A DNA stretch of 64,000 nt, taken from assembly GCF_008364845.1 (NCBI RefSeq), contig NZ_VTTP01000003.1, positions 62,001-126,000 on the forward strand. The letters run 5' to 3'. The notes under the pieces were generated by a model. The model ran no database searches. It saw only the letters and a program-made list of their open reading frames with translations, and had not been told where the DNA came from. A program made the position numbers and the translations under genes. This document shows, piece by piece, positions 3,001 through 12,698 of this stretch. The stretch's first letter is position 1. Each line of letters starts with the position of its first letter. The stretch is from Actinotalea subterranea. Lineage in GTDB: Bacteria > Actinomycetota > Actinomycetes > Actinomycetales > Cellulomonadaceae.

Positions 3001-5574
3001 CTCGAGGCCCCACGAGGCGCTCTGGTGGGTGCTCTCCTGCGTGTAGCCGAGGAAGATCGACGTGTCGAGGCCCTTGCGCCCGACGGCCTCGGACGTGGGC
3101 AGCACCGTCGCGTTCTTCAGGGCTGCGTCGTACGCGTCGAGCGCGACGTCGGTGCTCAGCGCACCCGCGAGGTAGGCCTCGGCGAACGACGCGTCCGAGC
3201 TGGTCCCGGTCATGAGGTCCGCGTAGCCCGGGGAGGACCAGCGCGCGACCCAGCCGCCGTCGCGGTACTGCTGCACGAACCCGTCGACGAGCTCCTGCGC
3301 GACGTCCGGGTACAGCAGCGAGTAGAGCGGCCACACGGTGCGGTACGTGTCCCAGAACCCGTTGTTGACGTAGACCTTGCCGGCCACGACCTTCGCGTTC
3401 GTCGTCGTCGCGGTCGCCGCACCCGTCTTGGGCGCGACGGGGCTCGCGTACCGGTAGTCCGGGTCCGCGGCCGTGCCCGTGTTCTCGAACTGCGAGTTCG
3501 GGTAGAGGTTCAGGCGGTACAGGTTCGAGTACAGCGTGGTGCGCTCGACGTCGGTCGCACCCTCGACCTCGATGACGCCCAGGCGGTCGTTCCACGCGTC
3601 CTGCGCGGCCTGCTGCACGTCGTCGAACGTCCGGCCGGTCGCCTCGAGGTCGAGGTTCGCCTTCGCCTGGTCCAGCGAGATGAACGACGTCGCGATGCGC
3701 AGCTCGACGTCCTTGTCGCTCGACACGTCGAACGCGGCGAACCGCGCCGAGGCGGCCCGGTCGCCCGTGGCCGCGCCGGTCGTCGTCGGACGGGCGTCGA
3801 ACACGCCGTAGACGAACATGCGGCTGCGGCCCGCGGACAGCCCGCTGCCGTTGTCGACCCAGCCCGTCAGGACGCCCTCGGCGTCGACGGCCAGGCCGGA
3901 GTCCCCGGCGACCTCGTCGACGAGCACGGACCCGACGGTCGCGGCCGTCGGGAACTCGAACCGGTAGACGCCCGCGTGGTCCGTCGGCGTGACCGCGGTG
4001 GTGATCCCGTTCTCGAACGCGACCTCGTACAGGTCCGGCCGCGCCGTCTCGTTCGCGTGCGTGAACGCCAGCTCACGGTCCGTCAGCGTGGACGTGGGGG
4101 TCGCCGAGAGGGACGGCAGCACGGCCAGCTGGTTGCGGTCGCCCATCCACGGGCTCGGCTCGTGCGAGATGCCGATGCCCTCGAGCTCGGGGAGGTTCTG
4201 GCTGCTGTTCTGCCGGCTGTACTCGTACAGCGTCCCCTCGGACCCACCGTTGGTCATGGGGACGAAGAAGTTGAAGCCGTTCGGCACGGCCGTCGCGGGG
4301 ATGTTGTTGCCCCGGGAGTAGGAGGTCGAGGAGTTGGTCCCGCGCCGCGTGTCGACGTGGCTCACCAGGCCGGCGGCCGTGTCACGGACCGGCGCGGCGT
4401 CGATGCGCACGTCGTCGACCCACCCGGAGAACGCGGTGGACCCGCTGCCGTCGGGGTTGGAGTAGGACAGGAGCACCTGGTCCACGGTCCGGTCCGCGAG
4501 GCCCGGGAGGCCGCCGACGTCGACCGTCACGGAGTTCCACTGGTTCGGGACGAGGACGTCCGACTCGCCCTGCGCCCGCGCCGTGGCGCCGTAGCCGTAG
4601 GCGTCGGTCGGGTCGTGCGCGGACAGCAGGCTCCCGTCGTCGAGCAGCAGGTCGACCGCGACGTACGTCGCCGGGTAGCTGAGGTCGCTGTCGAGGACGG
4701 GGAAGACCGTGTAGGAGAGCTGGGTGTCCGCCGCGACGTCCACGTCGACGTCGAACAGCGCGTTGGTCGCCGTCGCCTCACCGGCCGCGAGGTGCGCGCC
4801 CGCGTACTGCAGCGCCTTGCTCCCTGTGAAGCCCATGCCGGTCTTCGCGGTGGGCGAGCTGATGGGGCCGTTGCCGACGGCAGTCACGATCGGCGCCAGC
4901 GGGACCTGCCCGTCCGACTCCCCGAGGAGCTCCCAGTCGGCGAGCTGGATGATGTTGCCGCTGCCGTTGTTGGCGCTGATGTTGAGCCGGTAGTGGGCGT
5001 ACGCGGCGGGCGTGCCGGGCACGGTGTACGTCTTGGTGACGCCACGGTTCTCGACGGTGCCGGCCTTCCACGCCTGGTCCGTCCGGGTGTCCAGCACGGT
5101 CCAGGTCAGGCCGTCGTCGGAGCCCTCGAGCGTGAAGTTCTTGGGGTCCCGCGACGGGTCGTCGTTCGCGGACGTCAGCGTGTACGTCTGCACGGCGACG
5201 GGTGCGTCGAGCGAGTACTGCGCCCAGCCTGTCGTCGCGAACACGAGCCACTTGGTGGACTTGTTGCCGTCGGTGAGGAACGTGACGACCTCACCGGGCG
5301 CGTTCTGGCCCGACGCCGTGACGCCGGTGAGCTGCGGCAGCAGGCTCCCCGGGGTGTACCGCTTGCCGACCACGTTGACCGGGGCGGTGAACGAGGTGCT
5401 GGCCGCGGGCTGGTCCTGGCCGCTCTCGAACGAGGACGTGAACGAGGCGACGGGCGCGGCCGAGGCCGGCGTCGCGGTGAGCATCGTGGCGACGGTCGCG
5501 GCGGCCGCGAGGGCCGCGGTCGCCCCGCGACGCGCATGACGTGCGCGCCGCGGTGGCTGGGACAGAGCTGACAT
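1..5574 (-). CDS. Secreted multidomain GH92 alpha-mannosidase (3' end outside window)
   Basis: The gene reads leftward from ATG 5574 with AGAGGA six bases upstream, and stays open to base 1, giving at least 1858 residues. The N-terminus has an Arg-rich stretch, a long Ala-rich hydrophobic core and an ASA cleavage site, so it is secreted. A discoidin-like (F5/8C) module spans about 60-185, a second beta-sandwich about 190-390, and the GH92 catalytic region about 398-1110. Family hallmarks there are WDTYRTVWPLYSLLYPD, HQSASWGLEGFINDFGIG near 855, and GDEDNGEMSSWYVFSALGLY near 1045, which holds conserved acidic residues. Another discoidin-like module, PKD-like and Ig-like repeats follow. GH92 enzymes are calcium-dependent exo-mannosidases acting on N-glycans or yeast mannan; the exact linkage cannot be read here. 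The divergent LacI gene and the operator at 5862-5877 suggest induction by a sugar. No surface-anchor signal is visible because the end is missing. Confidence 0.93.
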   Translation of the reverse strand, partial: MSALSQPPRRARHARRGATAALAAAATVATMLTATPASAAPVASFTSSFESGQDQPAASTSFTAPVNVVGKRYTPGSLLPQLTGVTASGQNAPGEVVTFLTDGNKSTKWLVFATTGWAQYSLDAPVAVQTYTLTSANDDPSRDPKNFTLEGSDDGLTWTVLDTRTDQAWKAGTVENRGVTKTYTVPGTPAAYAHYRLNISANNGSGNIIQLADWELLGESDGQVPLAPIVTAVGNGPISSPTAKTGMGFTGSKALQYAGAHLAAGEATATNALFDVDVDVAADTQLSYTVFPVLDSDLSYPATYVAVDLLLDDGSLLSAHDPTDAYGYGATARAQGESDVLVPNQWNSVTVDVGGLPGLADRTVDQVLLSYSNPDGSGSTAFSGWVDDVRIDAAPVRDTAAGLVSHVDTRRGTNSSTSYSRGNNIPATAVPNGFNFFVPMTNGGSEGTLYEYSRQNSSQNLPELEGIGISHEPSPWMGDRNQLAVLPSLSATPTSTLTDRELAFTHANETARPDLYEVAFENGITTAVTPTDHAGVYRFEFPTAATVGSVLVDEVAGDSGLAVDAEGVLTGWVDNGSGLSAGRSRMFVYGVFDARPTTTGAATGDRAASARFAAFDVSSDKDVELRIATSFISLDQAKANLDLEATGRTFDDVQQAAQDAWNDRLGVIEVEGATDVERTTLYSNLYRLNLYPNSQFENTGTAADPDYRYASPVAPKTGAATATTTNAKVVAGKVYVNNGFWDTYRTVWPLYSLLYPDVAQELVDGFVQQYRDGGWVARWSSPGYADLMTGTSSDASFAEAYLAGALSTDVALDAYDAALKNATVLPTSEAVGRKGLDTSIFLGYTQESTHQSASWGLEGFINDFGIGEMAAALAVDPATPADRVAQLEEEARYFQARSKNYVNMFNSEAQIFTSRNADGTFNGDASFDKTAWGGAYTEASGWTFGFHAPYDVDGLAALYGGRSGLLADLDKFFATPETASHSGIHEAYEARDVRLGMLGMSNQVAHHIPYVYAAAGDASKTQELVREITQRLFAGSDIGQGYLGDEDNGEMSSWYVFSALGLYPLEVGSGDYTIGSPVFDKATVHLPSGDLLVTAPGASSGKVYVDGVSIDGTPVTDTLVDGDLLRDGGTLAFSMSDTPSTWGDKDLGEQLDVPQTLVDATKAGYGTLTATDGTAVGALSDDNSRSTVHVADGTTELVWTSASGPVVVDQYTLTNAGGTGTAPAAWTLEGSLDGQAWAPVDTRTSEAFRWSTQTRPFAISAQPKAYTSYRLSLSAAQGAALDLAEVELFATAAAASDLSLTAATGPIDTKVDVELDTTLATVVGGGAAATDYAVTVDFRDGDGPQPATLAPNGLGGWAVTAPHVFTRPGTYDALVTASEVGQPAVRTATITIRVTRDATLVGAFDNTCIGDLGTTPASCDGQGYGYDRAKLAATGFVQGATATIPGTDLTYTLPDVAPGDPDNATGAGQVIRLDLGTGAEQIAFIGTGTESGKDLTGTLTYADGSTGTVPLQFGDWVGASGNPSYGNVVVGLSAGRLSGVGAEGSIKNTAVYATAPFDLPKDGDGVTKQAVSLTLPVEAGALRDGRMHLFAIASDGTRTGSSPLAVTASAVGTQVVGTAFDAELAVATGGIGLDSATAVVSWGDGTVVDEVTLTSGAVRGHHTYTAVGTYTVTVTVDDGATSATTQLQIVVQTPPAVYTPTIAVSGDAVAPGADVTVTGQGFAAGETVVFTLASTPQVQVSAVASAQGEVSAQVTVPAGSASGTYPLSALGAVSATPASTTVRVQAPVTGPAATTLTLTASSGSVVVGQMVTLTARLSPAAATGEVRFLDGGRVVATAPATGGSGSFTASFPGGPAGE

Positions 5575-9112: not shown

Positions 9113-10762
<1,650 letters not shown>

Positions 10763-11132
10763 CTGGGTTTCTCCTCCTCGTCGGACGGAACGCCGTGCGG
10801 CTCGCACCCACGCCTCGCCCCCTGGGGCGGACCGGCACCGTCACCGCGCGACGCGCGTCACGATAGGGAGCGCGGGGTGCCCCTGTACCTGAGGGATCCC
10901 TCGTAGCGCCGGCCCCGGAGGGCGCCTCGCGTGCGGCGGCACGGCATCGACCTACGGGGAACCTCCTAGGTCCGCTGGTCCTCCCGCCGTGCCCCATACC
11001 CGGCGCGCGACCTCGGCCGCCGAAGGGTGAGGAGCGTCGACATGGCGCCACCGCGGCTCGCAAGATCCCCGCCCGTGCCCGTGTCGTGGTCCAGGATGGT
11101 CGTGATCCCCGGCGACGACCGGGTAAAACTCG
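10763..11132. promoter_or_regulatory. Divergent intergenic region, chitinase / cytochrome fusion
   Basis: This 370-base region must hold the promoters of both divergent genes. I see no convincing protein. Two dyads are visible: a perfect 12-base palindrome GAGGGATCCCTC at 10891-10902, and GACCTA/TAGGTC arms 12 bases apart at 10949-10972. Either could be an operator. I could not pick out -35/-10 boxes with confidence. Confidence 0.4.
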
Positions 11133-12698
11133 GTGGACGAGACAGGGGAGCATGTCGTGCTCGGTGTGGTGAACGACGCCGGTCAGGGCGCCGTGGTGCT
11201 GGGGTTTCCGTGGTGGCTCCAGGTCACCCACTTCGTGAACTTCCTGTTCCTCGGCCTGCTGATCCGGTCAGGGTGGGAGGTGCTCGCGTCGCACCCGCGC
11301 CTGTACTGGCGTAACGACTGCGGCCCGGGCACGGAGTGGCTCAAGTTCACCAGGGACGAGGTGCCCAGCGAGATCGGGGCCTTCACGGCTCGCGACGACC
11401 AACGCAGCCTGCACCCGATGGTCTCCCTGCCGGGTCGCGGGAAGATCGGCATCGGGCGGGCGTGGCACGGGCTCGTCACTGGCCTGTGGATCCTCAACGG
11501 CCTGGTCTACGTCGTGCTGCTCTTCGCCACCGGCCAGTGGCGGCGCATCGTGCCGACGTCGTGGGATGTCTTCGGGCAGGCGTGGGAGTCGGCGAAGATC
11601 TACGCGACGTTCGCCGTGCCCTCCCTCGAGCACTTCAACCCATACGACGGGCTGCAGAAGCTCGGCTACTTCGCCGTGATCTTCATCCTCGCGCCGCTCA
11701 TGATCGCCACGGGCGCGGCCATGTCACCCGCGATCGCGGGCCGGTTCCCCTGGTACCCGCGGCTCTTCGGCGGACGGCAGGCCGCCCGGTCGATCCACTT
11801 CCTCGGCATGGCCGCGTTCCTCGGGTTCACGCTCATGCACGTGACGCTCGTCCTCCTCGTGCATCCCGAGCACAACCTCGTGCACATGATGATGGGTGAG
11901 ACGGAGTTCCGCCGGGCCCTGGTCGCCCAGGCGATCATCCGCGTGATCCTCGGGGTGACGGTCGTCGTCATGCTGTGGATCCTCGCGTCCTACTGGTCCC
12001 TCGCTGACCTGCGCCGGTCCCAGCGGCTGCTCTACCGTCTCCAGCGGCCGTTCAAGCGGCTGCTCCCGCGGGCGACCCGGCAGCGGACCGCCTACACCGA
12101 GGCGGACATCTCGCCCTTCCACTGGGTCAACACCCGCCCGCCGGACGCGAACCAGTCCCCGGACTGGCTCGCTCTGCGCGAGCGCGGGTTCGCCGACTAT
12201 CGCCTGGAGGTGGGTGGCCTCGTCGCCGCTCCCGCGACGTTCTCGGTCGAGGAGCTCAAGGCTCTCGCCGAGCAGGACCAGATCACCCTGCACACGTGCA
12301 TGCAGGGGTGGACGGGCATCGCGAAGTGGTCCGGCATCCCCCTCCGGGCACTCCTCGCTCAGGTGGAGCCGTTGGCGGGCGCCGAGTTCGTGATGATCGA
12401 GTCCTTCGGCACGGCGCAGCACATGGCGGACGGGCGGCCCGTCGAGCCCTACTACACGGTCCTGCCCAAGGCGGTCGCGATGGAGGACGAGACCATCCTG
12501 GCGTGGGGCATGAACGGCGCGCCCCTGCCCGAGATGTACGGGGCGCCCCTGCGCCTGCGCGTCGAGTCCATGCACGGCTACAAGATGGTCAAGTGGGTCC
12601 GGTCGGTCTCGTGGATCCGCGACTACGCCGACGTCGGCGACGGCATGGGCGGGACGCGCGAGGACTCGGGGTACCAGGACATCGACGCCCGGATCTGA
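11133..12698 (+). CDS. Cytochrome b561-like / sulfite-oxidase-fold molybdopterin fusion protein
   Basis: A 521-residue protein from GTG 11133. The first 300 residues form a hydrophobic region of about five membrane helices with histidines placed as haem ligands (THFVNFLF; RSIHFLGMAAF; TLMHVTLVLLVH), like the di-haem cytochrome b subunits of hydrogenases and formate dehydrogenases. Residues about 330-521 match the molybdopterin domain of the sulfite oxidase/MsrP superfamily; LHTCMQGWTGIAKWSGIPL near 390 supplies the conserved cysteine expected to bind molybdenum, and HGYKMVKWVRSVSWI fits the end of the fold. No Tat or Sec signal precedes the catalytic part, so its side of the membrane depends on the number of helices. 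In effect an MsrQ-like haem protein and an MsrP-like enzyme are joined in one chain. The substrate is unknown. GTG 11157 is an alternative start. Confidence 0.85.
   Translation: MDETGEHVVLGVVNDAGQGAVVLGFPWWLQVTHFVNFLFLGLLIRSGWEVLASHPRLYWRNDCGPGTEWLKFTRDEVPSEIGAFTARDDQRSLHPMVSLPGRGKIGIGRAWHGLVTGLWILNGLVYVVLLFATGQWRRIVPTSWDVFGQAWESAKIYATFAVPSLEHFNPYDGLQKLGYFAVIFILAPLMIATGAAMSPAIAGRFPWYPRLFGGRQAARSIHFLGMAAFLGFTLMHVTLVLLVHPEHNLVHMMMGETEFRRALVAQAIIRVILGVTVVVMLWILASYWSLADLRRSQRLLYRLQRPFKRLLPRATRQRTAYTEADISPFHWVNTRPPDANQSPDWLALRERGFADYRLEVGGLVAAPATFSVEELKALAEQDQITLHTCMQGWTGIAKWSGIPLRALLAQVEPLAGAEFVMIESFGTAQHMADGRPVEPYYTVLPKAVAMEDETILAWGMNGAPLPEMYGAPLRLRVESMHGYKMVKWVRSVSWIRDYADVGDGMGGTREDSGYQDIDARI

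Follow-up and report, generated by a model that had tools for sequence, protein, structure and literature searches.

Within a 64,000-nucleotide stretch of the Actinotalea subterranea genome (here called the window) lies a gene that joins a cytochrome b-type membrane protein and a molybdenum cofactor (Moco) enzyme domain in one chain. No N-terminal RR signal for Tat export is visible in its sequence, as a preliminary description of this DNA had already remarked. That description held that the orientation of the protein and the route of its cofactor loading need explaining; they do, and the questions taken up here are which side of the membrane the catalytic domain occupies, how it receives its cofactor, and what reaction it might carry out.

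Gene structure and domains

The open reading frame is present as first described, at 11133..12698 on the + strand, with 521 codons when read from the GTG at 11133 (residue numbers below follow this reading). The true start may be an in-frame GTG at 11157, 24 bases downstream, which is favored because a Shine-Dalgarno-like GGGGAG (11145-11150; start region 11145..11159, +) lies six bases upstream of it. Translation from there would yield 513 residues, with neither Lys nor Arg ahead of helix 1. The neighboring genes, a GH18 chitinase and a LuxR-type regulator, are both on the opposite (-) strand, so the gene stands alone; the chitinase (9113-10807, -) has two CBM5/12 stretches. Clustering of the called genes from 64 loci gave no conserved partner gene that would name a substrate: apart from the window protein's own family, neighbor families occur at 12 loci or fewer each, and the most widely spread come mainly from close relatives or from the loci of stand-alone cytochromes described below.

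The single-chain cytochrome–Moco fusion is real, with two Pfam domains above their cut-offs in one ORF: Ni_hydr_CYTB (PF01292, prokaryotic cytochrome b561) at residues 25-254 (55.9 bits, cut-off 30.1) and Oxidored_molyb (PF00174, sulfite oxidase family) at residues 354-495 (109.6 bits, cut-off 24). The first of these, together with four heme His residues, supports the identification of the membrane part as a heme protein. Since the single-chain form recurs in many relatives, the fusion is neither an assembly artifact nor a chance event.

Helix borders were taken from hydropathy and from an AlphaFold2 model (pLDDT 81.2, pTM 0.80), which agree. They show five long helices, the last of which ends near residue 291 and is indeed followed by the catalytic part (all coordinates are on the + strand). 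Helix 1 (residues 27-53, 11211..11291; hydropathy, model, and conservation) carries the heme ligand H33; the tail ahead of it, lacking Lys and Arg, would be outside. Loop 1 (residues 54-104, 11292..11444) is rich in Lys and Arg, and from hydropathy and charge count is predicted to be cytoplasmic; matches to sulfite oxidase structures often begin within it, with aligned ranges starting at residues 77-90. From the model and conservation, helix 2 (residues 105-133, 11445..11531) holds the ligand H112 and helix 4 (residues 215-242, 11775..11858) the ligands H222 and H236, while helix 3 (residues 173-196, 11649..11720) was placed by the model. Between helices 3 and 4, the Arg/Lys-rich loop 3 (residues 197-214, 11721..11774; hydropathy, model, and charge count) is again predicted to be cytoplasmic. 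Helix 5 (residues 261-291, 11913..12005; hydropathy and model) is preceded by an unconserved Arg pair and has a Kyte-Doolittle peak of 2.6, the highest of the five. It is followed by a basic linker (residues 292-320, 12006..12092), by hydropathy and charge count probably cytoplasmic as well; by the Oxidored_molyb core, delimited by Pfam and alignment (residues 354-495, 12192..12617), with the Mo ligand C389 in the motif HTCMQGW and Gln391 at Cys+2; and by a C-terminal region recognized in alignments, with a GxGGxxED motif (12639..12695), which is common to fused and type A split relatives and is shortened in type B. The heme ligands H33, H222, and H236 are found in 55/55 aligned rows and H112 in 54/55; in a 44-row alignment that includes broken genes, H33 is Tyr in one row.

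In VIA-align 2 comparisons the membrane half matched FdnI (1kqf_C; Z 10.7, 181 residues aligned, 3.6 A) and HyaC (6g94_A; Z 9.4, 153 aligned, 3.6 A), Z values that helical bundles reach more easily but that are backed here by a shared Pfam family. FdnI, HyaC, and both split-pair cytochromes scanned belong to PF01292, and one of the stand-alone cytochromes falls slightly below its cut-off (29.8 vs. 30.1 bits). Direct HMM scores of FdnI, HyaC, and MsrQ against the family's membrane profile (3.3, -0.5, and 0.8 bits) are marginal and do not discriminate, so the kinship with FdnI and HyaC rests on shared Pfam family and fold. For the catalytic half the best match was SorA (2blf, Z 19.1), with MsrP (1xdy_B) at Z 15.7. 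A family profile run against solved structures matched through the catalytic half, MsrP first (1xdq, 2.1e-17), then sulfite dehydrogenases, sulfite oxidases, and nitrate reductases.

Membrane orientation and active site

Orientation was assessed by counting Lys and Arg in the segments flanking the helices, comparing the odd loops (1 and 3) with the N-terminal tail plus loops 2 and 4; of loop 1, the 12 residues at either end entered the count. As N-in controls we used FdnI and HyaC, which are separate subunits serving periplasmic catalytic partners; their helix borders were set by hand. Loops 1 and 3 were richer in 41/42 fused proteins (means 7.9 vs. 3.52), with one tie (L098, 5 vs. 5) and none reversed. 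Another, L026, has a margin of one residue (8 vs. 7), and loop 2 of the fused proteins retains one to three Lys/Arg. These 42 comprise an earlier count of 34 of the 37 fused proteins collected (34/34 rich in the odd loops), the remaining three, and five further ones. Stand-alone cytochromes, represented by four of ten cytochrome-only loci, have the same bias in 4/4 (means 9.0 vs. 3.25). In the cytochromes of split pairs, encoded next to a separate Moco gene, it is reversed in 9/9 (means 4.11 for loops 1 and 3 vs. 13.56 for the even sides); the 42 fused and nine split sequences share ancestry, however, and equal one inversion rather than many independent tests. The N-in controls side with the split proteins (FdnI 1 vs. 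17, HyaC 4 vs. 10).

A second line of evidence comes from relatives with an extra helix ahead of helix 1. In all 15, Lys/Arg are more numerous in the 20 residues preceding this helix (2-6) than in the stretch that follows (1-3), which places the start of helix 1 outside; two other flagged rows turned out to be helix 1 itself.

By the positive-inside rule, this bias would make the fused bundle N-out/C-in and the Moco domain cytoplasmic. From the sequences at hand we regard a cytoplasmic catalytic domain as very probable. Molybdenum cofactor is made in the cytoplasm, and three MoeA-family matches in the host genome point to its synthesis there. A Moco domain in this compartment would be loaded in place and would need no Tat signal, so both difficulties raised by the preliminary description find an answer in the charge bias: the C-terminal domain is put where its cofactor is accessible.

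The split pairs differ from this in more than charge. Nine of ten split loci fetched were used (an unannotated Halomonas locus was left out), and in these a cytochrome b/b6 gene precedes a separate Moco gene; the hosts are Rhizobium, Methylorubrum, Paroceanicella, Paraburkholderia, Sphingomonas, Rahnella, and Caballeronia. Their Moco subunits have a Tat-like signal in 9/9, with RR in the first 60 residues and then a hydrophobic stretch, and a lipobox-like Cys in 8/9.

The active sites differ as well. The conserved cysteine reported earlier is the Mo ligand C389, present in 30/30 rows of an alignment from which 14/43 relatives were excluded (ten as near-copies, four because their frames are broken or partial). 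The residue at Cys+2 is Gln in 42/42 fused proteins; E. coli MsrP, like 9/9 split proteins, has Glu there. The motif past the Mo cysteine resembles the C-V-E-A-W of MsrP, and the CSGNSR insert of SorA is absent at this position from the family. This suggests that the chemistry is MsrP-like with a fixed alteration, although Gln at Cys+2 may also mean a chemistry unlike that of MsrP. Among NCBIfam equivalogs the best match is MsrP, yet it is below cut-off (79.7 vs. 207 bits); SorA, SorT, and SoxC are far below theirs (59.2/600, 42.1/570, and 43.3/420 bits).

Distribution, side branches, and phylogeny

The fusion is patchily distributed in actinobacteria. Of 396 genomes sampled across the phylum, with up to three candidates scored in each, at least 12 have a full-length fused match, at least one more has it in two abutting frames, and at least six have the cytochrome part alone. 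Within the family to which the window's host belongs, 3/61 genomes carry the fusion, one has just the Moco part, and seven just the cytochrome part; three other genomes of the genus had no fused match (0/3). A relative in two abutting frames (G058:C18; L059, L089) probably reflects a frameshift in a draft assembly. A search of 72,556 plasmid records gave 545 matches; in 88 of them at least 80% of the query is covered at a single location, split pairs whose pieces were joined being counted among these. Among the matches listed, fused plasmid examples belong to actinobacteria, haloarchaea, and alpha- and betaproteobacteria, and in annotated records the fused members are mostly named just “molybdopterin-dependent oxidoreductase.” Such patchy presence suggests horizontal transfer.

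Some neighborhoods outside the window are more informative than its own. Five loci were fetched of the six haloarchaeal ones among the matches listed, and in all five (L106, L107, L122, L123, L124) a TDT/TehA-family transporter adjoins the fused gene. At four of six proteobacterial loci fetched (L108, L110, L126, L127), a DUF2945 gene is directly upstream. Two annotations deserve comment: in Paraburkholderia (L109, start at 3968) the annotated start probably omits an extra first helix encoded upstream in frame, and in Methylocystis (L125, 1960-4461) a fused protein with a long repeat-bearing N-terminal extension is annotated as a tetratricopeptide protein.

Some of the stand-alone cytochromes lie next to electron transfer genes. 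At six of the ten cytochrome-only loci (L079-L088), namely L079, L081, L085, L086, L087, and L088, the neighbors include etfB and etfA, joined at four by an acyl-CoA dehydrogenase gene. ETF is cytosolic, which agrees with a donor site facing the cytoplasm, and suggests the inverted stand-alone cytochrome as a candidate route for passing ETF electrons to quinone.

In a tree of the cytochrome part (50 rows, 37 of them fused), split proteins are separated from fused plus stand-alone ones with branch support of 100/99, and the stand-alone cytochromes are nested in the fused branch that bears the extra helix. In a tree of the Moco part (49 rows), the fused proteins are on one side of a branch with weaker support (82/89); its three outgroup rows are on long branches, and its root is unsure. 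The trees contain 37 of the 42 fused proteins whose charges were counted. Because the N-in state is that of FdnI and HyaC, the flip would most simply be placed on the fused side.

Possible functions and known systems

Taken as a joint statement, the best explanation is that of a one-chain, quinol-dependent oxide reductase with an inverted bundle and a cytoplasmic Moco domain, and we consider it probable, with some reserve; the functional part by itself, that the fused protein works as a quinol-dependent oxide reductase, is put forward tentatively, at slightly less than an even chance. It would have arisen when a split pair or its ancestor underwent fusion and an inversion of its membrane topology, the starting state being an N-in cytochrome b and a separate, Tat-exported Moco subunit. 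A cytochrome b561 bundle with four helices and two hemes would be inserted N-out/C-in together with a fifth helix, and the C-terminal sulfite-oxidase-fold domain would remain in the cytoplasm and receive molybdopterin there, without Tat export. Most likely, menaquinol would donate electrons at the outer-leaflet heme (H33/H236), to cross by way of the inner heme (H112/H222), facing the cytoplasm beside the Moco domain, to the Mo at C389, which would reduce a cytosolic S-oxide or similar oxide. Quinol as the donor, the direction of flow, the substrate, and the orientation in vivo are what we infer. In FdnI, quinol is oxidized at the membrane face opposite its catalytic partner. If the same holds here, protons would be released outside, electrons would move inward, and the substrate would take up protons inside; turnover would therefore be energy-conserving, and that of the split N-in pairs energy-spending.

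The same cytoplasmic orientation could also serve the opposite reaction, oxidation of sulfite or another reduced sulfur compound with electrons passed to quinone. This we consider unlikely, if less so than the alternatives that follow. The sulfite-oxidase fold and the best Z, to SorA, would suit it, as would the transporter gene next to 5/5 haloarchaeal fused genes: the TDT family includes sulfite exporters, and this neighbor is a hint of an anion substrate such as sulfite. However, the CSGNSR insert of SorA is missing; scores are far below the SorA, SoxC, and SorT cut-offs, MsrP being the best NCBIfam match, itself below cut-off; and some split homologues are in operons that resemble methionine-sulfoxide repair systems.

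Opposite in orientation is an assembly by dual Sec/Tat export, in which helices 1-4 would be inserted by Sec, helix 5 would be an internal Tat signal, and the Moco domain would end up outside. The study by Tooke et al. (2017, PMC5449189) describes Sco3746 of Streptomyces as a five-helix heme-Moco protein whose last helix is such a signal, and reports proteins of this type in actinobacteria and archaea, with conserved twin arginines right before TMD5, a TMD5 that is weakly hydrophobic on that paper's scale, and heme His in TMDs 2, 3, and 4. In the window protein, too, a Moco domain follows five helices, and helix 5 has an Arg pair ahead of it and positive charges behind. This export route, suggested by the Arg pair and the basic tail, was in fact our starting hypothesis, and was dropped when relatives were found to be without the pair. 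Among 46 fused or stand-alone sequences the pair is present in one, the window protein itself, whereas the paper describes it as conserved; the heme His are in helices 1, 2, 4, and 4 rather than in TMDs 2, 3, and 4; and the charge bias predicts N-out, the opposite of the N-in orientation required. On the Kyte-Doolittle scale helix 5 has the top peak in 19/42 fused proteins, the window protein included; this does not point to a weak helix, but the scale differs from the free-energy scale of the paper, and we count the hydrophobicity of helix 5 neither for nor against dual export. A separate protein of the same genome is a better candidate: L001 (1135-2946, -), another Moco protein with RR at 251 directly before its fifth and last hydrophobic stretch (257-275), fits the published dual-export design. 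(A third, L002, is a short Moco-domain protein of 199 residues.) For the window protein we think dual export very improbable.

The preliminary description likened the protein to MsrQ-MsrP, and this likeness does not extend to the membrane half, which is PF01292 cytochrome b561; E. coli MsrQ is PF01794 Ferric_reduct (60.5 bits), to which the window protein has no match. A periplasmic, MsrPQ-like methionine sulfoxide reductase in one chain, with its catalytic part outside, is the most doubtful reading of all, since the membrane parts belong to different families, there is no Tat signal, and the charge bias places the Moco domain inside, for all that this domain is nearest MsrP by phmmer and, below cut-off, by NCBIfam.

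Returning to an inverted oxide reductase, it is possible, though we would put it somewhat below an even chance, that one ancestral event flipped a two-heme cytochrome b561 and its Mo partner: Tat export would have been lost, the genes fused, the charges reversed, and Glu replaced by Gln, with the redox loop going from energy-spending to energy-conserving; one branch would later have dropped the Moco domain, its inverted cytochrome being taken over as a membrane acceptor of electrons from ETF. To our knowledge, homologous membrane enzymes of opposite orientation are rare, and among the matches listed in the open-licence literature (titles and abstract openings), no account of a fusion with inverted topology was found. 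Such enzymes are valuable test cases for the evolution of membrane topology. In the fused family the proposed flip coincides with gene fusion, a missing Tat signal, and an active site that differs in a fixed way; it leads to definite predictions about cofactor loading, the side of catalysis, and energy yield. If electrons flow as proposed, the redox loop after the flip would conserve energy rather than spend it. It also cautions that five helices and a C-terminal Moco domain do not by themselves mean export: one genome appears to hold both orientations.

Known systems share parts of this design. E. coli MsrP-MsrQ has the same sulfite-oxidase-fold domain, with C-x-[E/Q]-[AG]-W, and a heme membrane partner, but is encoded by two genes, with MsrP reaching the periplasm by Tat and MsrQ in PF01794. 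FdnI and HyaC have PF01292 and a four-helix, two-heme fold in common with the fused membrane half. A further resemblance is to the split pairs, and through them to MrpX/YedYZ (BcrXQP; c3566-c3568), likened to these pairs by operon layout and description. An annotated MXKDX repeat protein is found at 3/10 split loci (L105, L118, L120; L121 is without annotation), with a sigma factor and DUF1109 near the pairs of L105 and L120 and a kinase/regulator pair near that of L118; in these neighbors (sigma/DUF1109 or kinase/regulator, and MXKDX peptide) the three loci resemble published MrpX/YedYZ-type operons. Several reports (PMC8550376, PMC8315932, PMC5748585) connect such operons with methionine sulfoxide reduction and with resistance to hypochlorite or peroxide. 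Split pairs of this type and the fused proteins are built from the same homologous modules, with four heme His and an HxCx[EQ]GW motif. The split pairs differ in having two genes, four helices, a Tat-like Moco subunit, and Glu at Cys+2; their cytochromes are N-in by charge (9/9), and the fused window protein is predicted to be the opposite, in one chain and with no Tat-like signal.
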